Assembly: GCA_025356095.1 (NCBI GenBank)
Contig: JANXUR010000062.1
Span: 1-64,000 of the forward strand
Length of the DNA stretch: 64,000 bases
Direction of reading: 5' to 3'
Source of the DNA: Acidobacteriaceae bacterium
GTDB taxonomy: Bacteria > Acidobacteriota > Terriglobia > Terriglobales > Acidobacteriaceae
Shown here: positions 2,376 through 42,400 of the stretch, piece by piece
How the letters are laid out: each line of letters starts with the position of its first letter
How positions within the stretch are numbered: the stretch's first letter is position 1
The notes under the pieces: model-generated
Told to the model about the DNA's origin: nothing
The model's input: the letters and a program-made list of their open reading frames with translations, nothing else
Databases searched by the model: none
Position numbers and translations under genes: made by a program

Positions 2376-5300
2376 CTACTTGTTCTTGGCCTTCCAGTCG
2401 TCCTCAGCCATGAGCTTGATCGGGTCCAGCTTCGATTTGGCCAAAGTTGGAGATAACGCCGCGGCTTCCGTTCCCTTGGCTTGGAGCTTGGCGGCTGCGT
2501 CGTCGAGCTGTTTGCTCAGTGTACCCATGTAGTCTAGCTGCGACTGCGTGGGCCGTCCGGGATAGCCGTTTACTGAGCCATAAAGTTCGCCCAGTTTTTC
2601 GCGGAGTTTGCGTTCGCCCGTAATGGCACCGCCTTCCTTGATTGCCAGAATCGAGCCGCGCAGTTCGTTCATGTCATCGGCGAGCTTGGTAAGGCTGGCT
2701 TTCAGGGCCTTATCGGCCTTGGTCGTACCAGTCACCTTTTCTGCGCGCGCCTTGGCTTGATCGCGCAGGTCGTTGCCCGCGTCCACAAGATAGGTTAGCT
2801 TGGCCAACATGTTGTAGAGCTTGAACGCCGTGTCATTGGAAAAGGCACGATCGTCCACTGAATCGGTGGAGCGCGGGTCGGCAACCAATTTGATTTCGCC
2901 GTTGTAGGTATTCTTGCCCTTTGTCATCTTGACCGTATAGGTGCCCTCGGGGACTTGCGGCCCCTGGAAGGCGTACTGGCTTTGAATCAAGCTGGCGGCG
3001 GGAGGCACCTTGGGTGCTTTCAGCCGCTGGGCCCAGTAGATGCGATTCAGTCCGCGACGTTTGTCGCCTGTGATGGTCGTGAGCAGGGTGCCTTTGCTGT
3101 CAAAGATCTCGAACTTCAAGTCGCCAAAGACGTGGCGCTTCTTCTGGTAGTAAACAATGGGCGAATCCGTGGACAAGGTGCGGCCAACAAACTCGGCGTC
3201 GCCATCCATACGCTGTTCGCCTGAAGGCAAGGGCAGCAGCGCGGGCCGAGCCGGAAGAATCGCTGCTTCTGAAGCAAGTATCTCTGGGGTAAGAGCACGC
3301 AGCGGGGTCAGGTCGTCAAGAATGAAGATACCGCGGCCATGCGTTGCGATAAGCAAATCCTGTTCGCGGGGATGAATCACGATATCGCGCACTGCAACGT
3401 TCACCGGGAACGACCCCTTCATCTGTGCCCAGTGTGTGCCACCATCGAGGCTTAGATAGAGTCCGAACTCGGTTCCCGCAAACAGCAGGTTGGGGTTGAC
3501 CGTATCTTGACGAACGGTGTGGGCATAGCCGGTGACGTCTGCGGTGGCCAGCGCCTTCCAGGTTTTGCCGTAGTCGGACGTTTTGTAGATGTAAGTTTTC
3601 TTGTCGCCCTTCGCGTGGCCGTCGAAGGTGGCGAACGCCGTGCCGGTATCAAAGGCTCCTGCGTTTACCGTGGAAACCCAAGTACCCGCCGGTACGCCGG
3701 TTGCATTGGTGGAAACATCCGTCCAGCTCTTACCGCCATCACGCGTTACCTGCAGTCGGCCGTCGTCGGTGCCGACCCAAATTACGTTGGCATCTTTGGG
3801 GCTTTCAGAGATGGAAATAATGGTCTCGAATTTTTCAGCGTCGGAGTTGTCGGTCGTCAAGCCGCCGGATTTTTCCTGATGCTGGCGTTCGGGGTCGTTG
3901 GTCGTCAGGTCGCCTGAAATACGCTCCCACGATTCGCCCCCATTGGTTGAACGGAAGAGAATTTGTGCGCCGATATACAGTGCGCCCGACTTCGGTCCAA
4001 TGTGCATCGCGGCATTCCAGTTGAAGCGGAAGTCCGGCTCGCCCGGACGTGGCAGAGGCTGTACATCCTTAAACTCGCCATTGGATTTGCGATGCCGCAG
4101 AATGTGGCCGCCCTGATATTCGACGTACACAACGTCCTGATCCTTGGCATCTACCAGCGCCCAGAAGCCGTCACCAAACCCAATGTTGTTCCAGTGGCGA
4201 TTGGCGATGCCACCATCGTGGCGCGACGGACCGAACCAAGTACCGTTGTCTTGCAGTCCGCCATAAACGTTGTAGGGGAACTGCATGTCGTAACTCACGT
4301 GGTAGAACTGCGAGAGTGGCAGCGCCTGCAAAAAGCGCCACTTGGCTCCGCGGTCCATGGATTGATACAAGCCGCCGTCGCTTACGGTGAGCAACTGCTC
4401 GGTGTTGCTCGGGTTAATCCACACGGCATGGAAGTCACCATGCACTCCTTGCGAATCATCATCGCCAATACCGCTGGTGCTGAACGTCTTGCCACCGTCA
4501 TCACTCACCGTATTGTTGAAACCCGGCTTGTACACGCGATCAGGGTTGCTGGGATCCACCACCAGCCGCGCAAAGTAAAACGGCCGTCCAGAAATATTAG
4601 AGGAGCTATTCGTCTCGGCCCAGGTTGCGCCCGAGTCATCCGAACGGAATAAGGCTGTGTGGTTGAGCGCTTCTACCACGGCATAAACACGCGATGGCTG
4701 CGACGGAGCAATCCCGATGCCGATGCGGCCGAGGTCCCCTTTGGGCATCCCTTCGCGAAGTTCTTTCCAGGTTTTGCCGCCGTCGGTGGTCTTGAAGAGT
4801 CCGCTGCCCGGCCCACCCGAAGTGAAAGTATGCGGCTCGCGCTTAACCTGCCACATTGCGGCGTAAAGCACGTCGGGGTTCTTGGGATCCATCTTGAGAT
4901 CGGCGCAACCAGTCTTGTCGTCGCGATAGAAGACTTTGGCCCACGTCTTGCCGCCATCGGTCGTCTTGAATACGCCGCGCTCATCGTTGCTGTCCCACAA
5001 ATGACCCAGGGCGCAGGTATAAACGGTATTGCCGTCTTTGGGATGAATCGCAATAGCGCTGATGTGTTCGCTGTCTTTCAGGCCGACCTGCGTCCAGTTT
5101 TCGCCATTGTCATGCGTAACGTAAACGCCTGTGCCAATGGAGACGCTGTTGCGCGTCCACGATTCGCCGGTGCCTACCCAAACCGTTTTGCTGTCGGAAG
5201 GGTCCACCACGACAGAGCCGATGGATTGCGTGTACTTGTCGAAGACGGGCTTAAATGTAGTGCCGCCATCGAGCGAGCGCCACACGCCACCGCCCGCAGA

Positions 5301-6415: not shown

Positions 6416-6520
6416 GCGATTTCTCCTGAAAAAATGTGTAGTCACCACGTATTGTCACTTTAATAAGATATGCAGCATCAGACGAAAGCCATGTTTCGGG
6501 TGGCCTCGGGAGGAGCCAAT

Positions 6521-6610
6521 CTTGCCAGTCTTGCCAGTCTTGCCAGTCTTGCCAGTCTTGCCAGTCTTGCCTGCCTTGGCTACCTTGGCTGCCTCGCCAG
6601 ATTTGCCTAA
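6521..6610. repeat. 9-bp tandem repeat, 5 perfect plus about 4 degenerate copies
   Basis: CTTGCCAGT occurs five times without error (6521-6565). The 9-bp phase continues in diverged units such as CTTGCCTGC, CTTGGCTAC, CTTGGCTGC and CTCGCCAGA. It lies in the 500-bp divergent gap 6416-6915 between the LolA-like gene and fpr, which also holds the fpr promoter. Confidence 0.9.
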
Positions 6611-6765
6611 TTTTGCCTGAAACGAGCAGAAGTATCCCGCTTGAGACCATAGCGCCGGGCCGCGGTGAAGTCAAACCACTGACCCATGCCTTTTGTATAT
6701 ACGTACTACCGGGCAAAAGGTTTCACAGCGTTGGCTGCATTCAACGAATTTGAGTCGCGAGCAAA

Positions 6766-6915: not shown

Positions 6916-7701
6916 ATGCAAAGCGAAGACAAATTCTACCGTGCTACCATCACCGACCGTTCTGAATTCGCCGAAGACCTTTGGCGCATCCGCGTCAATC
7001 CCAATGGCGAATTTACCCACGTGCCCGGCCAATACGCCACGCTGGCCGTCGAGGTGGACGGCAAACCGCTGCAGCGCGCCTATTCCATCGTCTCTTCTCC
7101 GTATGAGAGCGAAATCGAGTTTTTCTTCGAGCTGGTGCCGCAAGGCGCCCTGACCCCTCGGCTTTACGAGTTGAAGACTGGCGACCCGGTCTGGATGCGC
7201 AAGGGTGCGAAGGGTCGCTTTACCCTCGACCTTAAGTCTGGCCACAAAAAGCACCTCCTCGTCGGTACCGTTACCGGCCTCGCTCCCTACGTCAGCTATG
7301 TGCGGACCATGTATAAGGACTTCAAGGAAGGCGGTGAACACTTTCCCGCCGGGCACCACCTCTACATCCTCGATGGCGCCAGCCGCAGCCACGAGTTTGG
7401 CTACCACGAGGAGTTGGAGAAGATTGCCGCCGAAGTGCCGTGGCTGACCACGGTATTCACCGTGAGCCGCCCCTGGCTGGAGCCGGAGTGGAAGGGCGAA
7501 ACCGGTCGCGTGGATGAACTGATCCGCAAGTACACGGATTTGTGGGAGATGACCGGTGCGGACACCACCGGCTACCTCTGCGGCCATCCCGACATGATCG
7601 AAAACGGCAAGGGCATCCTGAAGCGCAAGGGCTTCCCCAAAGAATCCATGTTCGAAGAGGTGTACTGGATTCCGGCCAAGGGGGATGGCGCGGAGGAATG
7701 A
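6916..7701 (+). CDS. fpr: Ferredoxin/flavodoxin--NADP+ reductase
   Basis: FAD enzyme passing electrons between NADPH and ferredoxin or flavodoxin; 261 residues, cytosolic. The FAD-binding motif RAYS lies at 54-57 (QRAYSIVSSP). The NADP-binding loop is GTVTGLAPYVS at 117-127. A CGHPDMIEN motif near 226-234 and an aromatic C-terminal region (EEVYWIPAK) complete the subclass pattern, close to E. coli Fpr. GAGGA precedes the ATG. The last 90 bases of the gene are duplicated downstream at 8068-8142, beyond an antitoxin-like gene. Confidence 0.93.
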   Translation: MQSEDKFYRATITDRSEFAEDLWRIRVNPNGEFTHVPGQYATLAVEVDGKPLQRAYSIVSSPYESEIEFFFELVPQGALTPRLYELKTGDPVWMRKGAKGRFTLDLKSGHKKHLLVGTVTGLAPYVSYVRTMYKDFKEGGEHFPAGHHLYILDGASRSHEFGYHEELEKIAAEVPWLTTVFTVSRPWLEPEWKGETGRVDELIRKYTDLWEMTGADTTGYLCGHPDMIENGKGILKRKGFPKESMFEEVYWIPAKGDGAEE

Positions 7702-7711
7702 GGCGACAATG

Positions 7712-7727
7712 GTAACATATACGTTAC
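7712..7727. promoter_or_regulatory. Palindrome GTAAC-N6-GTTAC, candidate autoregulatory operator
   Basis: A perfect 5-bp inverted repeat with a 6-bp spacer lies 10 bp after the fpr stop and 16 bp before the likely start of the HTH antitoxin-like gene. Antitoxins of this type commonly repress their own promoter; use of this site is inferred from position. Confidence 0.45.
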
Positions 7728-7743
7728 TATAAGGATGGCTGAC

Positions 7744-8064
7744 ATGCCCCTGACCCGCGACTTCAAAGAGACCATCCGCGCCCGCGCTCTCGGCGATGCC
7801 AAGTTCCGCAAGGAGTTGCTTCGCGAAGGCGTCGAATGCATGATTGCTGGCGACACCGCGACGGCGAAGGCCATCCTGCGCGACTACATCAACGCGACCG
7901 TCGGGTTCACCGACGTGGCACAGGCAACAAGCATCCCGCCGAAGAGCCTGATGCGTATGCTGGGCCCAGCGGGCAACCCCCGCGCCGGCAACCTGTTTGA
8001 CATCCTCAGCTACCTGCAACAACGTGAAGGCGTGCGCCTTCGAGTAACCGCAAGACTCGCCTGA
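7744..8064 (+). CDS. HTH antitoxin-like DNA-binding protein
   Basis: 106 residues from the ATG at 7744, preceded by AAGG at a workable distance; an ATG at 7735 gives 109. The sequence LTRDFKETIRARAL...LREGVECMIAGDTATAKAILRDYINATVGF and the helix-turn-helix PPKSLMRMLGPAGNPRAGNLF match the putative addiction-module antidote family usually paired with a RelE/HigB-like toxin. No toxin ORF lies next to it: upstream is fpr, downstream is a duplicated fpr fragment. It may be an orphan antitoxin or repressor. The gene sits exactly between two 75-bp direct repeats, which marks it as an acquired segment. Confidence 0.8.
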   Translation: MPLTRDFKETIRARALGDAKFRKELLREGVECMIAGDTATAKAILRDYINATVGFTDVAQATSIPPKSLMRMLGPAGNPRAGNLFDILSYLQQREGVRLRVTARLA

Positions 8065-8067
8065 CTC

Positions 8068-8142
8068 GGCATCCTGAAGCACAAGGGCTTCCCCAAAGAA
8101 TCCATGTTCGAAGAGGTGTACTGGATTCCGGCCAAGGGGGAT
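8068..8142 (+). pseudogene. Duplicated 3' end of fpr (75-bp direct repeat of 7612-7686)
   Basis: 74 of 75 bases match 7612-7686; the only difference is G7625 versus A8081. The copy keeps the fpr reading frame for the C-terminal residues but has no start, so it is a gene fragment. Weaker similarity continues for roughly 15 bases beyond the exact repeat (GGAGGA-N-CAGG). The repeat period is 456 bp and encloses the antitoxin-like gene. Confidence 0.93.
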
Positions 8143-8188
8143 TGGGGGGGAGGAGCAGGCTCTGCTCACTTCGGTGGAGTTATGGTAG

Positions 8189-8218: not shown

Positions 8219-8476
8219 ATGCCGATCAACATCAAGGATCCCGACACCGACCGACTTGCCCGCGAGCTTGCCCGAGCCACCGGCGAGAAGATCACGCAGG
8301 CGGTGGCGACCGCACTGCGCGAGCGGCTGGAGCGGGTGCGGGGAGTCGGATTCGCGCCGGACCTGCTCGGCGACCTGCGCAGCATCTCCCGGCGCTGCGC
8401 GGCGCTGCCCCTGCGCGATCGGCGCGCGGGCGATGACATTCTGTATAACGAGCGCGGCCTGCCGCGCGAGGGTTAG
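8219..8476 (+). CDS. vapB: VapB-type antitoxin
   Basis: 85 residues. The N-terminus MPINIKDPDTDRLARELARATGEKITQAVATALRERL (read in parts) has the short strand plus helices of Rv0623-like/PSK-type VapB antitoxins that bind DNA as ribbon-helix-helix dimers. The C-terminal third (LPLRDRRAGDDILYNERGLP) is the toxin-wrapping tail typical of this subgroup. It is translationally coupled to the toxin, whose ATG lies 3 bp after the stop. The pair looks richer in G+C than its neighbours, consistent with transfer. Confidence 0.92.
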   Translation: MPINIKDPDTDRLARELARATGEKITQAVATALRERLERVRGVGFAPDLLGDLRSISRRCAALPLRDRRAGDDILYNERGLPREG

Positions 8477-8478
8477 CC

Positions 8479-8871
8479 ATGGTGCTGGATGCGTCCGCTT
8501 TGGTGGCGATTCTGGAGGGCGAGCCGGAAGCCGAGCGCCTGATGCAGGCGATTGTGGCCGACCCCAAGCGGCTTATCTCCGCCGCGACGCTGGTGGAGGC
8601 CGGAATCGTGATCGAGGCGCGGCGCGGCGAAGCGGCTGGCCGCGAGCTTGACCTGCTGTTGCACCGCCTGCGGGCTGAAGTAGTTGCCGTGGACGCGCAA
8701 CAGGCCGAGGCGGCCCGGGGAGCCTACCGGCGGTTCGGCAAAGGCGTGGCCGCGCCCGGCCTCAACCTTGGCGATACGTTTACGTACGCTCTGGCGCGGG
8801 CCAGCGGCGAGCCGGTGCTGGCTTTGGGTACGGAGTTTGCGGAAGCTGGACTGGCGGTAGTGGTGCGGTGA
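8479..8871 (+). CDS. vapC: VapC-type PIN-domain ribonuclease toxin, possibly impaired
   Basis: 130-residue PIN-domain protein. Members cleave RNA with Mg2+ or Mn2+ held by four acidic residues. Three are evident: Asp4 (VLDASALVAIL), Glu40 (TLVEAG) and Asp99 (NLGDTFTYALA). The fourth, normally the Asp of a GxDFxxTD motif near the C-terminus, is missing: the aligned segment here is GTEFAEAGLAVV (117-128). Some PIN enzymes tolerate loss of the fourth acid, so activity is uncertain. It follows vapB after 2 intervening bases. Confidence 0.9.
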   Translation: MVLDASALVAILEGEPEAERLMQAIVADPKRLISAATLVEAGIVIEARRGEAAGRELDLLLHRLRAEVVAVDAQQAEAARGAYRRFGKGVAAPGLNLGDTFTYALARASGEPVLALGTEFAEAGLAVVVR

Positions 8872-10776: not shown

Positions 10777-10810
10777 AAAAAAAGCCGTGCCGAACCGGGC
10801 ACGGCTTTTC
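10777..10810. terminator. Bidirectional intrinsic terminator after the helicase
   Basis: AGCCGTGCC (10783-10791) pairs with GGCACGGCT (10798-10806), with seven A upstream and TTTT downstream, so it can act on either strand. Confidence 0.9.
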
Positions 10811-10887
10811 TGCGTCACGGCTTTGGGTCACTTTTCTGCGTCACTTTTCTGGGTCACTTATTTGGGTCACTTTTTTGGGTCACAAGG
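10810..10887. repeat. 13-bp tandem repeat, 6 copies
   Basis: Units of the form YTGSGTCACTTTT repeat every 13 bp from 10810 to 10887, starting at the last base of the helicase terminator. The gap 10888-11063 beyond it shows no ORF and no motif I recognise. Confidence 0.9.
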
Positions 10888-11063
10888 CTGAGAGAGACGG
10901 GTCACAGCCGGGTCCATGCCTTGCGGCGCATAATGGCGCCTACGGCGGGTTAAGCATAAGGGCCCCGCGTCTCCCAGCACCCTCGGAGCGTGTGCGAGGC
11001 GAGGTTCCGAGCCGAACCCTTAGCGGAACCACCGTATCTGTGTAGTCACCCCCCACTTTCGTG

Positions 11064-13283: not shown

Positions 13284-13312
13284 TACCCTACTATAGTAAT
13301 TATGTGGCTATA
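13284..13312. repeat. 29-bp AT-rich dispersed element (copy 1)
   Basis: An AT-rich stretch with a TACTATAGTA palindrome is identical over 29 bp to 24533-24561, and similarity continues for about 20 more bases on the right. It lies 270 bp upstream of the ABC-F gene. Confidence 0.88.
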
Positions 13313-13358
13313 CATTTATTTTGCCGCACGTCATAGATACTCCCTTCCCGCCAATTTT

Positions 13359-16637: not shown

Positions 16638-16694
16638 GTCTCGGCCACTTTATGCTTTGGAGGGTAGGCGACGCAGTCGGTCGCATCGCTATCC

Positions 16695-16799
16695 GTCAGA
16701 GCGTTGTCCGTTAGAGCGTTGTCCGTTAGAGCGTTGTCTGTTAGAGCGTTGCCTGTTAGAGCGTTGTCTGTTAGAGCGTTGTCTGTCAGAGCGTTGTCT
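16695..16799. repeat. 15-bp tandem repeat, 7 copies, upstream of the RND operon
   Basis: GTYAGAGCGTTGYCY repeats seven times in exact register. Degenerate units flank it on both sides (16680-16694 and from 16800). The array ends 45 bp before the mdtA-like start. Because 15 is a multiple of 3, it leaves an open frame (SVRAL repeated) that falsely extends the gene upstream. Confidence 0.95.
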
Positions 16800-16844
16800 G
16801 TTCGAATCGCTGTTTGTTCAATTAAAGGAAGGATTCACCGCATC

Positions 16845-24532: not shown

Positions 24533-24561
24533 TACCCTACTATAGTAATTATGTGGCTATA
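24533..24561. repeat. 29-bp AT-rich dispersed element (copy 2)
   Basis: Identical over 29 bp and in the same orientation as 13284-13312. It lies between the REP and the nearly G-free block, upstream of BNR gene 2. Confidence 0.88.
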
Positions 24562-24595
24562 GTATTTATTCTGGCCACGCCATATTTCTTCTTCA

Positions 24596-24912
24596 TGCCG
24601 CACACCCACACGCCTCACACCCACATGCCGCACACGCCTCACACACTCACACCTCACACCTCAGACACTCACCCCTCACGCGCCTTACACCCTCACGCCG
24701 CACACCCACACCGCGCTCACACACTCACACCTCACACCTCAGACACTCACCCTCACTTTCCTCACCCCTCTCTTTCCTCACACCCACACCCGCTCACTCT
24801 CACTTTCCTCACCCTTCACTTTCCTCACACCCACACCCGCACACTCTCACTCTCCTCACCCTCACTTTTCCCGCTACCCCTCACTTTCCCGCTACCCCTC
24901 ACCCCTTCCGCC
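24596..24912. repeat. Nearly G-free C/A/T block of nested tandem repeats
   Basis: About 320 bp built from CACAC, CTCAC and TTCCTCAC units. A 36-bp segment recurs perfectly (24638-24673 and 24716-24751). Shorter duplications follow, for example TTCCTCACACCCACACCCG and TCCCGCTACCCCTCAC. G is almost absent from the plus strand. The apparent His/Pro/Thr ORF over it is a by-product of the composition. The rest of the 24332-25005 gap holds the REP and the AT-rich element; no gene is seen. Confidence 0.93.
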
Positions 24913-32756: not shown

Positions 32757-34457
32757 TTAGAGATCCCCCTTTTGCGCTTGGTCCAGCAGGTACTCAGACG
32801 CGCGCCAAGTCAGTGCCATAATCGTCAGGGTTGGGTTTTTATCAGGGTTGGTTACAAAACTTGCAGCATCGGTCACAAACAAATTTTTAACTTCGTGCGC
32901 CTGGCAGAAAGAATTCAGCGCCGAGGTGCGCGGGTTGCTGCCCATGCGGACTACGCCAAGTTCGTGGATAATCACACCACCATCGGCAATGCCATATGGG
33001 TTCTCACCCTCCGGCCCCTTCTTCGTCTTGTAAACGCCGCCCGCTGCTTCCACAATGCCCTTGAACGTCTCTTGCATGTCTTTAGCCATTTTCACTTCGT
33101 TGTCGCTCCACTTCCAGTGGAAGCGCAAGACCGGAATGCCAAAACGGTCAGTAACGTTGGGGTCAATCTCGCAGAAACTATTTTCATTGGGAATCATTTC
33201 GCCGCGTCCGGCGAAGCCAATGGTGGTGCCGTAGCTCTCGCGGCACTTCTGCTTCAAGCCTGCGCCGTAGCCTTCGAACTCATCGGCCACGTCGCCAAAC
33301 ATACCAATCCCCGGCATATCTTGTCCGCCGCCAAATTCAATGTGATAGCCGCGCAAAAAGTCATTCTTGCGGTCGAACTTCCACCACGGCATATACATGT
33401 GCATGCCGCCTACGCCGTCGTGATTGTGCTTGGGCACCTTTGCCATCTGCGGAAAGTAGCCATAGCCGTCGCTGCCCACCGAGTCGGTCAGGTAGCGGCC
33501 CACCACTCCAGAGGAGTTCGCCAGCCCGTTGGGGAAGAGCGCCGACTTGGAATTCAGCAGCAGGCGTGCCGATTCGCAAGCGCTGGCTCCCACCACAAAT
33601 GCCTTGGCGTAAATGCGCTTCTCTTCCAGCGTCTGCTTGTCTATGTAAGAGGCAGCCTGCACTTTGCCATCTTTGCCCACCACCAACTCGCGCACCATCG
33701 CGTGCGTAATCAAGGTGAGGCGGCCGGTCTTCTTCGCAGGCGGAATCATCACCTGACTTGAGCTGAAATTGGACGCAGTACGGCATCCCCGGCCGCACTG
33801 GCCGCAGTAGTGGCAAGCAGCGCGCCCATTCACCGGCTTGGTGAGGATGGCCAGGCGCGAGGGCACGCACAGCACCCCCAGCTTGTCGCACGCGTTCTTG
33901 ATGACCGTCTCACTGCAGCGCGGCACGGGCGGCGGCAGAAAGTCACCGTCCGGCGCACTGGAGATATTCTCTTTGGTGCCGAACACGCCTATGTATTTTT
34001 CCACCTTGCTGTAGTAAGGCGCCAGCTCATCGTAGGTGATCGGCCAATCATCGCCCATGCCATCGCTGGAGCGCGACTTAAAATCCACCGGCGCGAAGCG
34101 CAGCGCAATGCGGCCCCAATGGTTGGTGCGCCCGCCAACGATGCGCGAACGGAACCAGCGAAACTTCGAGCCAGGCGCCGCAGTGTAAGGCTCGCCCTCA
34201 ATCTCCCAAAAACCGTTGGGCGCAAGAAATTCACCAAAATTTTCGCCCTTGGCACCCTTTCCTGCCCCGCGATGTGGCAGGTCATAGGGCATCATGTGCT
34301 CTTTGTAGTCGGTGTCAGGATTCACCGGCCCGCCAGCCTCCAGCATCACCACATTCAGGCCACCCTCGGTGAGAATCTTGGCTGCGGTTCCGCCCGAGGC
34401 GCCCGAGCCGATGATGCACACGTCATAAGTCTTTGGCGTTCGCACTACTTGAAACAT
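32757..34457 (-). CDS. GMC-family sugar oxidoreductase (FAD subunit)
   Basis: 566 residues. The FAD-binding motif IIGSGASGGTAAKIL lies near the N-terminus (about 15-29). Cys-rich segment CHYCGQCGRGC is near 220-230. The C-terminal active-site region has VIIHELGVVRMG (His) and NPDKNPTLTIMAL (Asn). It has no signal of its own and would be exported with the adjacent subunit 3. This pairing is that of glucoside 3-dehydrogenases and related flavin sugar dehydrogenases passing electrons to the respiratory chain. Substrate not determinable. Confidence 0.9.
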   Translation of the reverse strand: MFQVVRTPKTYDVCIIGSGASGGTAAKILTEGGLNVVMLEAGGPVNPDTDYKEHMMPYDLPHRGAGKGAKGENFGEFLAPNGFWEIEGEPYTAAPGSKFRWFRSRIVGGRTNHWGRIALRFAPVDFKSRSSDGMGDDWPITYDELAPYYSKVEKYIGVFGTKENISSAPDGDFLPPPVPRCSETVIKNACDKLGVLCVPSRLAILTKPVNGRAACHYCGQCGRGCRTASNFSSSQVMIPPAKKTGRLTLITHAMVRELVVGKDGKVQAASYIDKQTLEEKRIYAKAFVVGASACESARLLLNSKSALFPNGLANSSGVVGRYLTDSVGSDGYGYFPQMAKVPKHNHDGVGGMHMYMPWWKFDRKNDFLRGYHIEFGGGQDMPGIGMFGDVADEFEGYGAGLKQKCRESYGTTIGFAGRGEMIPNENSFCEIDPNVTDRFGIPVLRFHWKWSDNEVKMAKDMQETFKGIVEAAGGVYKTKKGPEGENPYGIADGGVIIHELGVVRMGSNPRTSALNSFCQAHEVKNLFVTDAASFVTNPDKNPTLTIMALTWRASEYLLDQAQKGDL

Positions 34458-34540
34458 TCGTCGGTAGCCTTTCTGTGTGGCCCTGAATATTTTTCGCCGC
34501 GCCGCGGATCGCCGCGAGTTGCGCGTCTTGCCGCGTACGC

Positions 34541-35410
34541 CTAGAACTTCAATCCGCGCAAATAGCGCTGGCTGTTGGTGATCATCGCAATCGGGTCCTT
34601 TGCGTTATCCTGCTCCACAAAGTAGTACTTCACGCCGTGCGCCGGTGCCACTTCCAATATTTTGGCGAAGTCAATGCCGCCCTGCCCAACATCCACTTGG
34701 GCTGCATCGCCAATGGCCATCTCGTTGTCCTTGGTGGAGCGGGTGGTCATACCTTTCGCCATATCCTTTAGGTGCAACGATACGAAGCGCTTGGGGTATT
34801 TTGCCATGTAGGCCAGCGGGTCAGCGCCTGCGAACGTCATCCAGAACAAATCGGCCTCAAAGCTAACGTTCGCTGCGTCCGTGTGCTGTAACAAGACGTC
34901 ATAGCCGCGCTTGCCTTCTGCTCCCCCGAACTCGAAATTGTGATTGTGGTATGCAAACTGAAGCCCCGCTTTCCGCACCCGCTCTCCAGCCTGATTAAAA
35001 GCCTCGGCGGTCTTTTCCCAGCTTCCGGGCGCGCTCCGCTCTTCCTCCGCAATCCACGGACACACCAGCAACTTGTGGCCAATGGTATGGGCCAGTTCCA
35101 GCGTTTTGGGCCACTGCTCTGCGCTTAGCATGCTGAGTTCCAGATGCGCCGCCGGTGCAGTCAGCTTGTTGGCGTCGAGCATCTCCCGCACCTGCTTGGG
35201 CGTGTGGTCAAAGTAGCCAGCGAACTCCACATCGTTGTAGCCAGCCTTGGCCACTTGGGCGAGCGTACCTGCCATGTCGGCCTTCATCTGGTTGCGCACG
35301 GTGTACAACTGCAAGCCGATGCGGTCGAGTTGGTGTGAAGCGGCGGCGGACGCCGTGCGGGCAGTAGCCAGGGCAGCAGTCATCGCTCCCAGAAACACTC
35401 TTCGGTTCAT
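34541..35410 (-). CDS. Exported sugar phosphate isomerase/epimerase-like TIM-barrel protein (289 aa)
   Basis: Start at 35410 (MNRRVFLGAM...), with GGAGAA upstream; the signal has a twin-arginine-like RRVFLG and an Ala-rich core. The fold is the same TIM-barrel superfamily: LDRIGLQLYTVRNQM, YHNHNFEF, NVSFEADLFWM, FVSLHLKDM and the C-terminal YYFVEQDN match the inosose dehydratase/IolE-like group. It is first in the minus-strand cluster and divergent from trehalase. With the second family member at 30969 it may convert the 3-keto sugar made by the GMC enzyme; this is inference. Confidence 0.88.
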   Translation of the reverse strand: MNRRVFLGAMTAALATARTASAAASHQLDRIGLQLYTVRNQMKADMAGTLAQVAKAGYNDVEFAGYFDHTPKQVREMLDANKLTAPAAHLELSMLSAEQWPKTLELAHTIGHKLLVCPWIAEEERSAPGSWEKTAEAFNQAGERVRKAGLQFAYHNHNFEFGGAEGKRGYDVLLQHTDAANVSFEADLFWMTFAGADPLAYMAKYPKRFVSLHLKDMAKGMTTRSTKDNEMAIGDAAQVDVGQGGIDFAKILEVAPAHGVKYYFVEQDNAKDPIAMITNSQRYLRGLKF

Positions 35411-35585
35411 AGCTTTCTCCAGACGCTCCAGAAATGGCTTCACAGTTCTACGCTATTGGGCGATGCTTTTGCAAGAACGTTTATCTAAGCCCGAATCAGC
35501 AATCTGCTATGGCGAAATATTGCGGAATGCGAAACAATCGGTTGTCGAATTTTCTCACCAATTTTGTCGTCGCTGGGGGTTCTGC

Positions 35586-37268
35586 ATGAAGCGTTCTGTG
35601 CTGGGTTGCTTGTTGCTGTTTGTTTCTTTACTGCTGGCCTCGGCTGACGCTCAGGCCGCGCCCGCCCACCAACCACCCGCGGCACTGCACAATCCGCGGC
35701 TCGACCCCATCCTGCAATACATATCTCATGGTTGGGACACCCTGACCCGCACCATGGAAGATTGCGCCACCGTCCACGACCCCAAGGTGGCTGCGGCTTC
35801 CATTCTTTATCTGCCTGCTGGCATGGACGTACCCGGCTCGGTCAAAAAGCTTCAGCAGAATTGCAATGTGAAAGTGGAGCACCTGCCTGCGGTCATCACC
35901 GGCCCCGGCCAAGTGGATACCGCCAAGTTCTCACCCCATGGCCTGCTTTACCTGCCCAACAGATATGTTGTGCCTGGCGGCCGCTTCAATGAGATGTACG
36001 GCTGGGATTCCTACTTCATTCTGCGTGGATTGCTGCGCGATGGCCGCGCCGATTTGGCTCGAGATATTGTGGAGAATTATTTTTTCGAGATTGAGCACTA
36101 TGGCGGCTTCCTGAACGCCAACCGTACCTACTACCTCTCCCGCTCGCAGCCGCCCTTTCTCAGCTCCATGGTATTGGGTGTGTTTGAAGCTGAGAAGCAC
36201 GCTGGCCACGCCGACAATGCGTGGCTCGCCAAGGGCTACGCGTATGTAGAAAAAGATCACGCCGCCTGGCTGGCCGCGCCGCATCAGGCGGGCAAGACTG
36301 GCCTAGCCCGCTACTACGACTTCGGCTCCACCCCGCCGCCCGAGGGTCTTCAGGATGAATCTGGCTACTACCGCCAAGTGCTGGCATGGAGCATCGCCCA
36401 CCCCGGCCAGCTTGATGATCTGGTGGTGGATGCGAAGTCGCCAGACGGCTCTGGTGCCAGCTACAGCACACAGGTTTGCGACGTGGCCACCACCATGGAG
36501 AAGCCGCACTGCGAGCCGCCTGTAGCGCTGAAATTGAGCCGTGACTTTTACAAAGGCGACCGGGCGATGCGCGAGTCTGGATTCGATATCTCCTTTCGGT
36601 TTGGCCCCTTTAGCGCCCGTACCCACCATTTTGCCCCGGTGTGCCTGAATAGCCTTATCTACAAAGAAGAACTTGACTTGGTGCATATGGCTCGGCTGTT
36701 GGGCAAGCCCACCGAAGCCGCCAAGTGGGAGGCACAGGCCGCTGCCCGCAAGCGGAACATCACGAAATATCTTTGGGATGCTGAGCGCGGCTTGTTCTTC
36801 GACTACGACTATGTCGCTGGCAAGCGCTCCACCTACGCCTACATCACCACGTTCTATCCGCTCTTCGCGGGACTCGCTACCACCGAGCAAGCCCGCGCTG
36901 TGGTGCGTAACTTGGGTGTATTCGAGCACCCCGGCGGGCTGGCCATGAGCACTGAAACCACCGGCTTGCAGTGGGACTTGCCCTTTGGCTGGGCTCCTAC
37001 GAACCTGCTGGCGATTGACGGCATGAGGCGCTACGCCTTTGACAAAGAAGCGAATCGCGTCTCGGTCGCGTTTCTTTCTACCATTGAAGAAAACTTCCGC
37101 CGCGATGGCACCATCCGCGAAAAATACGATGTGATCACGCGCTCATCTGAGGCACACGCCACCACCGGCTACCACGCGAATGTGATTGGGTTTGGTTGGA
37201 CGAATGGAGCGTTTTTGGAGTTGCTGCATGGACTGCCCCCGGAAGAGGCGGCCAAACTGGGCCAGTAG
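35586..37268 (+). CDS. treA: Secreted trehalase, GH37, divergent
   Basis: 560 residues, signal peptide MKRSVLGCLLLFVSLLLASADA; hydrolyses trehalose to glucose in the periplasm. Trehalase signature 1 is PGGRFNEMYGWDSYF (129-143), signature 2 region LQWDLPFGWAP (460-470). The catalytic acid candidate is Asp334 in ESGFDISFRF and the base Glu512 in EKYDV. The glycine-rich GGGGEY motif that follows EKYD in typical GH37 enzymes is replaced by SSEAHATTGYHANVIGFGWTNG (given in two parts: residues about 518-529, then GFGWTNG). The upstream frame from 35247 is spurious. Shares a bidirectional terminator with fructokinase. Confidence 0.9.
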   Translation: MKRSVLGCLLLFVSLLLASADAQAAPAHQPPAALHNPRLDPILQYISHGWDTLTRTMEDCATVHDPKVAAASILYLPAGMDVPGSVKKLQQNCNVKVEHLPAVITGPGQVDTAKFSPHGLLYLPNRYVVPGGRFNEMYGWDSYFILRGLLRDGRADLARDIVENYFFEIEHYGGFLNANRTYYLSRSQPPFLSSMVLGVFEAEKHAGHADNAWLAKGYAYVEKDHAAWLAAPHQAGKTGLARYYDFGSTPPPEGLQDESGYYRQVLAWSIAHPGQLDDLVVDAKSPDGSGASYSTQVCDVATTMEKPHCEPPVALKLSRDFYKGDRAMRESGFDISFRFGPFSARTHHFAPVCLNSLIYKEELDLVHMARLLGKPTEAAKWEAQAAARKRNITKYLWDAERGLFFDYDYVAGKRSTYAYITTFYPLFAGLATTEQARAVVRNLGVFEHPGGLAMSTETTGLQWDLPFGWAPTNLLAIDGMRRYAFDKEANRVSVAFLSTIEENFRRDGTIREKYDVITRSSEAHATTGYHANVIGFGWTNGAFLELLHGLPPEEAAKLGQ

Positions 37269-37279
37269 GCTTGAGTGGC

Positions 37280-37304
37280 AAACGGGGCAGCCCCTGCCCC
37301 GTTT
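37280..37304. terminator. Bidirectional terminator between trehalase and fructokinase
   Basis: AAACGGGGCA (37280-37289) pairs perfectly with TGCCCCGTTT (37295-37304) between two convergent genes; it ends one base before the fructokinase stop codon. Confidence 0.85.
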
Positions 37305-37305
37305 G

Positions 37306-38208
37306 TTAAGCCTTGGCTGCCTTTATCGCTTCGATCTCGCCCGGCTCCGGCTTGGGCATGGCACCCGCCCGTGATGCCACCCACGAACCGGTGCGGTTGG
37401 CCGTCTCGTTCATCTGGGCCAGCGAAGCGCCCCGAAGATATTGATGCACTAGACCGGCGGTGAAAGCATCGCCTGCGCCTATCGTATCGGCCACGGTGAC
37501 ACAAAGCCCCGGGTGGGCTGATACTTCGTCCTCGCTTACAATCAGACTGCCCGCATTGCCGCGAGTCACACACACCAGCTTCAGTTCCATGGCGCGGCGC
37601 AGCCGCTGTGCATTTTCGGCTTCACTCCCCATCGGCAAACCTAGCAATGCGACAATCTGCGGCAGTTCTTCATGGTTCAACTTCACCACATCCGCCAACC
37701 GGATAGACTCCGCCAGTATCTGTGCCGAGAAAAATTTCTGCCGCAAGTTCACGTCGAAGATACGGACCGATTCTTCGCGAGTTGCCTGCACGAATTTTCG
37801 CACTGTATCCCGCGCCGAGGGCGAGCGCTGCGCCAACGACCCAAAACATACCGCATCCACGGTCTGGGCCAACTCATGCCACTGCGGCGTCCATTCCAGA
37901 AAATCCCACGCCACCCCTTCGCAAATCTCGTAGTGCGGCTGTCCGCCCGCAAACTCCACCTTCACCACGCCCGTAGAGTGCGTTGCGTCCTGCTGCACAT
38001 GCTTTGTCTCGACTCCCACTGCGGCAAGTTGGGCGAGCGCCTCCTCCCCCAGCGTATCTGACCCTACCCGGCTGGCAACTGCGCCCGCATCCCCCAACAG
38101 ACGCGTAATGTAGGCAAAGTTGGCTGGAGCTCCGCCTAGCTTCTTGCCTTCGGGTAAAACATCCCATAACAGCTCGCCAATGCCCACTACTTTATAGACT
38201 TGCTTCAC
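37306..38208 (-). CDS. Fructokinase-like PfkB carbohydrate kinase
   Basis: 300 residues, GTG start with GGCGGA close upstream. Ribokinase/PfkB fold: GELLWDVLP, the substrate glycine motif GGAPANFAYITRLLG and the anion-hole/catalytic motif DTIGAGDAFTAGL with Asp247 as base. The GELLWD opening and the NLR segment (FDVNLRQKFF) fit bacterial fructokinases making fructose 6-phosphate from ATP and fructose. Fructose could come from the GH32 enzyme encoded at 52988. Cytosolic. Convergent with trehalase. Confidence 0.88.
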   Translation of the reverse strand: MKQVYKVVGIGELLWDVLPEGKKLGGAPANFAYITRLLGDAGAVASRVGSDTLGEEALAQLAAVGVETKHVQQDATHSTGVVKVEFAGGQPHYEICEGVAWDFLEWTPQWHELAQTVDAVCFGSLAQRSPSARDTVRKFVQATREESVRIFDVNLRQKFFSAQILAESIRLADVVKLNHEELPQIVALLGLPMGSEAENAQRLRRAMELKLVCVTRGNAGSLIVSEDEVSAHPGLCVTVADTIGAGDAFTAGLVHQYLRGASLAQMNETANRTGSWVASRAGAMPKPEPGEIEAIKAAKA

Positions 38209-38271
38209 AGTTCCGCCTTCTGTGTTGTGCGTAAGGTATCTACTTGCTACAACCCGCAGACTTCGGTCGGG

Positions 38272-39381
38272 TTACGGCTTAACTGCGTCTGGCCCAGATT
38301 GCAATTGCAGGGCGCGCTTCAACTCGCGCTCTGCTTCTTCCGTCTTGCCTAAGTCCCGGTAGGCCGTGCCCAGCAGGTGGTGGGTGATGGGATTGTTCGG
38401 ATCCATCGTCACCGCGCGCGTGAGCGCCCGAATTGCCAGTACCGGCTCGCCCTTCTTCTGCAATACCTTACCAAGTAAGATGAATGGCCCGGTCGAAGTG
38501 GCATCCAGCCAGATGGAGCGCTGCAGCAATCGCTCGGCATCGTCGTACTTCTGCACCCGCGAGTACGCATCTGCCAATTCATACAACGTGGGTGCATGCG
38601 CCGGATTGAGTGCCAATTCTGCCTCAAACTGCGCGATGGACTCTGGAATTCTGGACTTATACAAGTACAATTCGCCCAGCAGAAAGTGCGCCAGCGGCAG
38701 CTTCGGGTCTGCTGCTACTGCCTTCAACGCGTACTCTTCAGCCACCGGATCGTACTCTTGCCGCTTTAGCATTCGGGCGGTAAACAGATAACTCGCCGCC
38801 GAATCCTTGGGCACATCGAACATCCTGGCAAACGCCTCGCGCGCCTGCTCGTATTGCTTGGCCTGTATGTAACAGATTCCTAGGATATAAGTTGCATCCA
38901 CGTTGGCCCGCGGATACCAAGATTGCACCTTCTCCAAATACGGAATCGCTTCTGGCGGCTTGCCCGCAAGGTAGTAGGAAAGCCCGGTCAACTGCACAAC
39001 TTCCTTGTCGCTGGGGTCTTCTTGCTGTGCCTTTAGTAGCGCCGGAATCGCACTGGCGTAGTCACCTTTGGTGTAGTAAGTAGATCCCAGTTCACGCCAT
39101 AGCCCTTTGGGCGAAGGCACTTGCGACTGTATCGCCGTAAGCGCGGCAACCGCTTCATCATAGTGCCCGTGCTGAGCCAGCGACCGCGCGTTGGCGAACA
39201 CCGCCTCCGGGGTGGCAATCGCCTGTCCGGGGGCCTGCGCAGCGGGCTCAGCGACTGTTGGCCCATCCACCTGAGCCGCAGTAACAAGACCCTGCGAGTG
39301 GGCTGAGGCACTGAGCATAGCTGCTAGCAGCAAACGAATGGCGCTTCTTTGTGTCAGACCAGTAAGGGAACTTTGAATCAT
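38272..39381 (-). CDS. Secreted TPR-repeat protein (369 aa)
   Basis: Signal peptide SAIRLLLAAMLSASAHSQG, then about seven to eight tetratricopeptide repeats. Examples are GKPPEAIPYLEKVQSWYPRA, AHFLLGELYLYKSRIPES and TLYELADAYSRVQKYDDAER. The ATG at 39381 is preferred; a TTG at 39414 would add 11 residues. It lies downstream of the TonB receptor on the same strand but behind a strong terminator. A protein-binding scaffold in the periplasm is likely; the partner is unknown. Confidence 0.85.
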   Translation of the reverse strand: MIQSSLTGLTQRSAIRLLLAAMLSASAHSQGLVTAAQVDGPTVAEPAAQAPGQAIATPEAVFANARSLAQHGHYDEAVAALTAIQSQVPSPKGLWRELGSTYYTKGDYASAIPALLKAQQEDPSDKEVVQLTGLSYYLAGKPPEAIPYLEKVQSWYPRANVDATYILGICYIQAKQYEQAREAFARMFDVPKDSAASYLFTARMLKRQEYDPVAEEYALKAVAADPKLPLAHFLLGELYLYKSRIPESIAQFEAELALNPAHAPTLYELADAYSRVQKYDDAERLLQRSIWLDATSTGPFILLGKVLQKKGEPVLAIRALTRAVTMDPNNPITHHLLGTAYRDLGKTEEAERELKRALQLQSGPDAVKP

Positions 39382-39429
39382 GAACGGCTCAAACCAGAAT
39401 GGCGCAGGTTGCAATCACACTTGTGGACG

Positions 39430-39462
39430 AAAAAAGCGGGGAGCCGATGAAACGGCTCCCCC
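39430..39462 (-). terminator. Intrinsic terminator of the TonB receptor gene
   Basis: On the minus strand a 9-bp GC-rich stem (39453-39461 with 39438-39446) is followed by GCTTTTTTC, 26 bases after the receptor stop. Confidence 0.92.
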
Positions 39463-39487
39463 TGGGTTTGTTGCTGTTCTAATCAGA

Positions 39488-42400
39488 TTAGAAGTTGAGG
39501 TGGACTCCAACCTGCATCTGACGCGGTGCCGTATCACCCTGCAAGCTGGTAATGAAGCCGGAGTTGCCTCCGCAATCAATACAGTTGTTGGGCGAGTTGA
39601 GCACCTGATGGTTGAACACGTTGAAGAACTCGATGCGAATCTGAGCCTTAATCCGCTCGGTCACCGCGAAGCTCTTGAACAGTGAGGCATCCGACAGGAA
39701 CTCGCCGGGGCCGGTGAAGCTGTTGCGCGCTACGTTGCCAAAGGTACCAGCCTGTGGCCGGATGAACACACCGCTCTGGGCACCATTGGTCGTCAACGGA
39801 GCAACTGGCGTGAAGAAGTGCACACGCTTGTTGGCTGCGTCGAAGCTGCCGGTGCTGGAGCTGAATGAACCCTTGATGCTCGGACGGCAAGGACCGGTGT
39901 CTTGGTCCTGACCGCACTCACCATAGCTCGGTGTGTACGGCAAGCCGCTGGCCACTGTCCAGGTGGAGTTCACCTGCCAGCCGCCGATGATCAGGTCCGC
40001 TGCTTTGCTGGAGCTGCCCATAAACTGCTTGCCCTTACCGAACGGCAGTTCATAGAGCACTGTCGCCACAAACACGTTGGCGCGATTATAGTCATCACGC
40101 CCGGTACCCACGGCCCGATCCAGCGGATAAGATCCATCCGAACCCGTCGCGCGGGAATAGGTGTAGTGAGCCAGGAACTGCAAGCCGTGGCTGAACCGAT
40201 GATCCAGCTTGGTCTGCAGTGAGTTGTAGTGGTTATCGGCATCGTTACCGTTGTAGCTGACATCGCCCGTGCAGCAGACGACGTTGGTGGTGACGCCATT
40301 CGCATCCGTATAGGGCGTGATGAACTTGCCGTTCAACGGGCGACGGTTACTCTGACTGATGGTACCAAACCCAACGATGCTGGGCTGGTTGGCGTTGTAA
40401 GTGTTGCCGTTGCCCTGGAAGGTGTGCGTACCCTTGTTGGCAACGTAACCGATTTCCACGCTGGTGGTGCTGTTCAGCTGGCGCTGAACCGTGATGTTCC
40501 ACTGGTCAATCGTGGGCAGGCGAACCGTATCAGGCCGTACGCGCGGAGTGACATCGCCCAAGGGGCCGCGGAAAGGCAGAATGCCATTCGCGGGAACCGT
40601 GGGGAAGATTTCCGGTGCCGGACCCTGCACGAAGTTGAATGCCGGGGTGTAGCCGTTCGTCGTGGCCAGGTTCTGGTTTGCCAGAACCGGCAGGTTCTGG
40701 GTCACAGTGTGTCCGAACAACGAACCGAACACGCCGAGATCGAAGCTGCGGCCGTAGCCCATGCGGACGACCGTCTTGGAGTTGAACTGGTAGGCGATAC
40801 CTAGGCGAGGAGCAAATGCCTTGGTTGCATAGCCAGTGCTGCCGTTGTTGGAGATGCCACCGTAGCCGGCAACCCGAATCACGCCTTCCGGCAGGACGGC
40901 GAAACCACCGCGACCCTGTCCGTTCACCGCTTCAGGGGAGAAGATTTCGTAGCGCAGCCCGTAGTTGATGGTCAACTTCGAGTTATAGCGCCAAGTGTCT
41001 TGTCCGTAGAAGAACATGCGGTTCTGGTGTTCGCTGGCACTCAATTCGCCCGCAGCCACGTTGCCTACGTAACGGTTGAAGCTGTTGACGGTACCGAACA
41101 GGAACGAGCCCAGATCTAAACCGCCTACCGTGGACGAGTGGTTCTCATTGCCGCCATCGGAGGTCGAGGTGTGGCTGAAGTGCAATTCGCCGGTCCGGTT
41201 TGCATCCGACGGAGTGCGCAGGTTGGTGGCATGCCGCAGATCCACACCGAACTTAATCTGGTGGTTGCCGCGGATGTTGGTCCAGTTGTTCACGAATTGA
41301 GCCTGACGTTCACGCTCAGTCAGCGGGCAGTTGCAACGGCCGACGCCCAAGCTTTCGCCCAGGTTGCCGTTGGGGCCTTGGCTCGCCTGATCCAGCGTGC
41401 CATCAAAGAACAATCCCGGCAACCCAAGGGTTGAGGAGTCGTTTGCGAGGTTCAGACCGGGCAGACCGAGGGAATTCGCCCCCGAAGCGCCTTGGTCAAA
41501 CTTGGTGGCATGCGGGTTGTACTGGAACCAGCCAAACCGGAAATCGGTGAGCCAAGTGTTGCTGAAGGCATAGTCAAAACCGGTTGCAATGCTACGGTTT
41601 TTGATTTCCGACTGCCCAGCTAGACCGCCCTGACCGAAGCCCGGACCGCCAATGCTGTTGCCGAAGATTGGAGCGCCAGCAATCTTGAAGTTCGCCAAGC
41701 TGAAGCGGCCGAAAACGGTCAGTTTCTGGGTGGCAGTGTAATCCCAGCGGGTGTTGAAGGCGTTGTCATTAAAGTTGCCCGAACCAGCGGCGCTGTAGTT
41801 ATCCAGCACACCGTTGGAGTTGCCCGCAGTGTTCGGAGCGGGCAGCAGGTTCAGGATGCCTTCGGCGATCGAGCCCGCAGCTCCAAAGTCTGCTTTGGGA
41901 ATGGCTACGTTATTCGCAATTGTGGAATGCTGCGGATCCCCTGGGACTTCCGTGTAGTAACCCACACCTGTATTCGGGTTGTAAAGCTGACCACCCGGAA
42001 CCAAATTGCCCTTGAGGGTTCCGTCGGTGTAGAGACGAACGTCATGGTTGTCAAAACCACCCCCAGAGAGACCGGAGTTGACGTACTCGCTCAAGTCGCA
42101 GGTTGCACTGGCTGGATTCAGACAGGTCGAACGAACCAGCGCGGTAGGAACCGTAACGGTCAGGTTCGAGCCGGTGATGCGACGAGTGCCTTGGTAGTCG
42201 CCAAAGAAGAATAACTTGTCTTTGATGACCGCGCCGCCGATGGATCCACCAAACTGGTTCCAGATGTTCTTGGCAAAAACCTTGCTGCCAAACGGATCCG
42301 TCGCACGGCCCGCGTTGTCGCGATGGAACCAAAAGCCGCTACCGTGATACTGGTTGCTGCCCGACTTGGTTTGGGTAGAGACGATACCGGCAACAGCTTT

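Follow-up and report, generated by a model that had tools for sequence, protein, structure and literature searches.

In the 64,000-nucleotide stretch analysed here (the window; contig JANXUR010000062.1 of an Acidobacteriaceae bacterium), the + strand carries an intact fpr-like ferredoxin/flavin-NAD(P) reductase gene (6916-7701, 261 aa, matching PF00175 and PF00970) whose final ~90 bp form one copy of a direct repeat. This copy (R, 7612-7704, + strand) is the fpr 3' end with its stop codon, and the other (R', 8068-8160, + strand) is a displaced or duplicated fpr 3' end that is non-functional. Between them lies a cassette of 363 bp (7705-8067, + strand, with a presumed left boundary) made up of a promoter/operator and an antitoxin gene, and the cassette at each end exceeds this functional unit by no more than a few bases. 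A VapB antitoxin (8219-8476, + strand, PF07704, E 1e-24) and a VapC PIN-domain toxin (8479-8871, + strand, PF01850, E 1e-18) are encoded beyond R', so that the vapBC module placed next to this islet in a preliminary description of the sequence is borne out by Pfam. That description had also noted that one copy keeps fpr intact and that an integrase is lacking; fpr does retain its own stop, and a search of the window's contig for tyrosine recombinases (PF00589) gave no match.

The fpr-end repeat occurs twice in the whole genome and no more. A third copy was sought behind vapBC and found absent, the score there equalling the shuffled mean, and R and R' are the sole non-tandem pair at close distance for which more than 90% identity was reported within the window. 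Other repetitive sequence in the window includes tandem arrays of a 9-bp unit (GCCAGTCTT) preceding fpr at 6506-6613, of a 13-bp unit (CTTTTCTGGGTCA) behind a DEAD-box helicase gene at 10805-10895 and of a 15-bp unit (GTCCGTTAGAGCGTT) at 16661-16810, as well as a CTCACAC-rich tandem stretch at 24598-24877. An AT-rich 52-bp repeat at 13284-13335 and 24533-24584 (79% identical, 11 kb apart) is possibly a dispersed element.

The 75-bp duplication with one mismatch reported in the preliminary description was reproduced, with 74/75 bases identical between 7612-7686 and 8068-8142. Its account of this block as the last coding bases of fpr holds as to the origin in the fpr 3' end, but the 75 bp stop 12 coding bases short of the fpr stop, and weaker similarity continues past it. 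The same ungapped register extends to 7704/8160 at 84/93 identity, with eight of the nine mismatches in the final 18 bases, and a BLAST alignment permitting one extra T gives 95.4% over 87 columns. Because the similarity runs to the fpr stop codon, the repeat comprises more than the last coding bases. R' begins 3 bp beyond the antitoxin stop codon. Its single mismatch in the first 75 bp changes the Arg of an Ile-Leu-Lys-Arg-Lys motif to His; the motif is common to L002 and L003, and the Arg is kept in L004 and L010 too. When the extra T is removed, R' still encodes the fpr tail (GDGGEE versus GDGAEE) and then continues without a stop. Given the Arg-to-His change, the inserted base and the lost stop, R' looks like a decaying, non-coding relic of the fpr end.

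The enclosed open reading frame (7735-8064, + strand, 109 aa) retrieved no match in Pfam or among PDB sequences. Homologues 53-80% identical place it in an antitoxin family of the HI1419/HI1420 type, with homology beginning at Met 7744, and an alignment of its clade (A1) shows full-length homology, the family's invariant residues and 72-78% identity to the nearest members. The AlphaFold model is all-helical (pLDDT 82). Foldseek matches to this model include several HTH repressors and antitoxins (HipB, HigA2, C proteins), all with E >0.5, and as these matches are weak, the identification as an HTH antitoxin rests mainly on gene-neighbourhood homology. A viral origin was considered and rejected, as no relative was found in viral contigs and one weak phage match covered less than half of the protein. 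Upstream of the gene is an operator palindrome (GTAACATATACGTTAC, 7712-7727, + strand) with the consensus GTAAC-N6-GTTAC; thus the one antitoxin-like gene and the palindrome described earlier are both present between the repeat copies.

The homologues are mostly the second gene of a pair, with the toxin ending just upstream. This toxin matches TIGR02683 (RelE/HigB-like, with scores above the TIGR02683 cut-off) and PF05973, and it was detected in 117/153 family units. The palindrome was found in 69/153, with a perfect TTGACA just upstream of it in 13 of these 69. In relatives it lies about 355 bp ahead of the antitoxin, before a toxin that fills the gap, whereas in the window the distance to the antitoxin start is 32 bp. 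The toxin is therefore absent between the window's operator and antitoxin, and a whole-genome search found no TIGR02683 gene anywhere in the host. The arrangement is otherwise that of HI1419/HI1420-type (TIGR02683/TIGR02684) systems, with toxin first, antitoxin second and a palindromic operator in front; the window unit differs in having no toxin and in belonging to an antitoxin clade that scores below the TIGR02684 cut-off. Judged from its sequence, the unit is a toxin-antitoxin (TA) cassette in which the operator and antitoxin have been kept and the toxin is missing, and the antitoxin probably still represses its own promoter. "Orphan", the term used in the preliminary description, is thus better replaced by the antitoxin of an HI1419/HI1420-type pair that lost its toxin and kept its operator. 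In another locus, L109, the operator likewise lies 24 bp before the antitoxin and the toxin has been lost (around 2974-3000), and in L037 the toxin is reduced to its first and last codons (around 2940-3006). L046 and L128 have partial toxins. The cases of L037 and L109 suggest that toxin loss with retention of operator and antitoxin has been repeated in the family.

We compared the fpr 3' regions of relatives, as the preliminary description had advised. Orthologues in the host's own family share 57-70% amino-acid identity with the window's fpr. None of the other 60 genomes searched (all from outside the host's genus, with fpr at ~70% identity or less) has a second fpr 3' end, and none of the relatives searched, again at ~70% identity or less, has the antitoxin behind fpr; in genomes of the family, antitoxin matches lie on different contigs from fpr. 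Since no fpr in the relatives searched has a second 3' end, the old duplication shared by all relatives that had been named as the alternative is not what these genomes contain.

To place the islet among its relatives, 142 units of the antitoxin family were surveyed for direct repeats by comparing the 450 bp upstream with the 450 bp downstream of the TA pair (or antitoxin), at a cut-off of at least 33 bits. Such repeats flank 14/142 units, versus 3/287 shifted positions (p 3e-5) and 1/152 other genes of the same loci (p 2e-4). With exclusions chosen after the fact, the figures become 9/137 versus 1/152 (p 0.006) when the window and four dispersed or interspersed cases are left out, p 0.012 when L160 (the same thiC system as L161) is also removed, and p 0.016 when 12 repeat-free plasmid units are added. 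The excess of repeat-flanked units is real but moderate. About 90% of family members have no flanking repeat, as do all of the plasmid-borne relatives (0/12). Repeats were found at 0/18 vapBC units examined, so the pattern may not extend to TA modules at large.

In the window and in three other loci (L071, L161 and L168), the downstream copy starts 0-3 bp past the stop codon of the antitoxin. Repeats of several other loci were set aside as evidence, those of L198, L136 and L060 for having further copies nearby and that of L184 for carrying a motif read as dispersed, and for L093 (92% over 427 bp) and L075 an ordinary local duplication could account for the repeats. In L071 the repeat resembles the 3' end of a tRNA or tmRNA; an intact tRNA or tmRNA in L071 or L073 was rejected, as there is only a fragment and ARAGORN and Rfam find no gene. 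The L168 repeat was considered as a gene 3' end and is, by our reading, an ABC-F 5'-end fragment instead. In that locus (G698:C19) the antitoxin stop overlaps the start of the ABC-F 5'-end fragment, and the unit is preceded by a second fragment of this kind.

The clearest parallel to the fpr islet is found behind thiC in two Burkholderiales genomes of the same family. In G580 (L161, L269), thiC is followed by the operator, the toxin, the antitoxin, a second thiC 3' end that has a stop codon of its own, and a HicB-like gene. Four extra thiC-end fragments (R) lie behind the thiC of G493, where the order is thiC, a HicB-like gene, R, HigBA, an antitoxin of the window's type, an XRE gene, R, HipBA, the antitoxin again, R, MazEF and R (L268 4400-11190; G493:C28, about 34400-41190), with a type III-like modification methylase next. 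The modules were assigned by Pfam, apart from the HicB-like gene of G493, which has no Pfam match and was assigned by likeness to that of G580 (49% over 47 residues). The thiC bodies of the two genomes are 88.9% identical. Three of the four G493 fragments (R1, R3 and R4) are 88-93% identical to the functional thiC end of G580, whereas all four are only 61-67% identical to G493's own thiC end, and the junction between antitoxin and R is identical in both genomes. Closer as they are to the G580 thiC end (three of the four) than to G493's own, the fragments were not made from the adjoining thiC and arrived with the modules, an instance of thiC 3'-end fragments travelling with TA modules. As to which thiC-end version is native, the evidence conflicts, with body identity favouring one version and both the outgroup tails and the HicB-like neighbour favouring the other. 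The flanking regions examined contain no further R copies, and an integrase is likewise absent within 75 kb of the array in G493. Nested within that array, a repeated 76-bp fragment resembling a higA start (L268 7227-7302 and 8217-8292) flanks the antitoxin and XRE gene.

We favour the reading, at a probability of roughly 0.55, that a TA cassette inserted at the fpr 3' end with a long target duplication, its toxin being lost afterwards or already missing. An HI1419/HI1420-type cassette (operator, toxin and antitoxin) would have entered the fpr 3' end, so that ~90 bp of it came to stand on either side (an insertion with long target duplication). Copy R would complete fpr, and R' would be free to decay. 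The toxin would then have been lost by a small deletion, if it was not missing already, leaving the antitoxin under its palindromic operator. The cassette may have entered through an integrase supplied in trans and acting on gene ends that resemble attachment sites, or it may have been captured at a staggered break with fill-in and kept, as addictive cassettes resist deletion. Sequence between direct repeats is prone to deletion, but losing an addictive module carries a penalty, which would explain why the repeats persist; this argument fails for a copy without a toxin, and so suggests that the window's toxin was lost recently or that its antitoxin has another use. The islet proposed earlier at the fpr 3' end is supported, as are the copy that keeps fpr intact and the lack of an integrase, and the decay of R' and the single fpr end in the relatives searched agree with it; that it was inserted, and by which route, we infer.

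A single insertion event is the simplest account of the window. Local tandem duplication, in which a TA unit or antitoxin already behind fpr was duplicated together with the fpr end and the second antitoxin then deleted, requires no recombinase and would yield two fpr-end copies of nearly the same sequence, as observed; long repeats such as that of L093 do look local. It demands two events with exact end points, however, no fpr relative searched has a TA unit behind it, and the spare thiC ends of G493 do not match the adjacent thiC and (three of the four) are closer to G580, so that at least there the spare ends were imported. We consider it unlikely for the window. The tight borders bear also on a decayed larger integrative element, with R and R' as attL and attR and with the integrase and cargo deleted. 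Integrases classically target the 3' ends of genes, the gene is made whole again on one side, a block of identity followed by diverged tails resembles an att site, and the tRNA/tmRNA-like repeat of L071 would fit. Such a deletion must nevertheless have halted, to the left and to the right of the antitoxin, only a few bases away from it, with the repeats still matching at 74/75; equally tight borders recur at several unrelated loci, and the window's contig has no integrase, making this origin improbable. We regard as similarly improbable a homology-assisted transfer, in which DNA of a related strain carrying fpr and the antitoxin recombined within fpr on one side, the other side being formed by an illegitimate joining inside the fpr end. 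It accounts for the differing thiC 3'-end versions side by side and for the abrupt divergence of the fpr tail, but its right junction is expected to be random and lies at most 3 bp from the antitoxin stop in four loci.

Insertion with long, variable target duplications, on the order of 100 bp, is described for restriction-modification units (PMC3874152, citing Nobusato 2000 and Furuta 2010), and PMC2654758 also cites long target duplication for these systems. Similar to them, the window has a small addictive type of unit, no transposase and direct repeats of the target of ~100 bp. It differs in that the unit is a type II TA module with its toxin lost, and in that several of the targets seen here are gene 3' ends and the thiC site was reused, giving an array. 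The literature we found, the coverage of which is patchy, holds no established example of long target duplication at a TA module, which is weak evidence.

Two further known arrangements invite comparison. CIMEs, and the accretion of islands at gene 3' ends as in a streptococcal ICE family, consist of att-flanked cargo without an integrase of its own, in tandem behind a gene; in contrast, the units discussed here range in size from only a few hundred bp up to some 2000 bp, and no related integrase was found nearby. Integron TA cassettes are likewise tandem TA modules divided by repeats that resemble recombination sites, but here the repeats are gene 3' ends and not attC, and no integron integrase lies near the loci. 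An integron cassette was rejected for the window specifically, as the repeat is fpr coding sequence and the contig has no tyrosine recombinase. Neither a recombinase for the cassette nor its active movement was seen. More tentatively, and with clearly less confidence than in the insertion at fpr, minimal mobile TA cassettes might carry the 3' end of their target gene as an integration site and build TA arrays behind housekeeping genes, with no recombinase or a borrowed one.

How chromosomal TA modules enter without a visible mobile element is a long-standing question, and a duplicated gene end set tightly against the module is a concrete, recurring signature to search for. It links TA modules to the movement by long target duplication proposed for restriction-modification systems and makes that mechanism testable. 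The window catches a late step, a state found in other members of the family, in which the toxin is gone and the antitoxin and operator remain. These observations suggest that cassettes of this kind can become established behind genes and duplicate the end of the gene even where no recombinase is encoded nearby.
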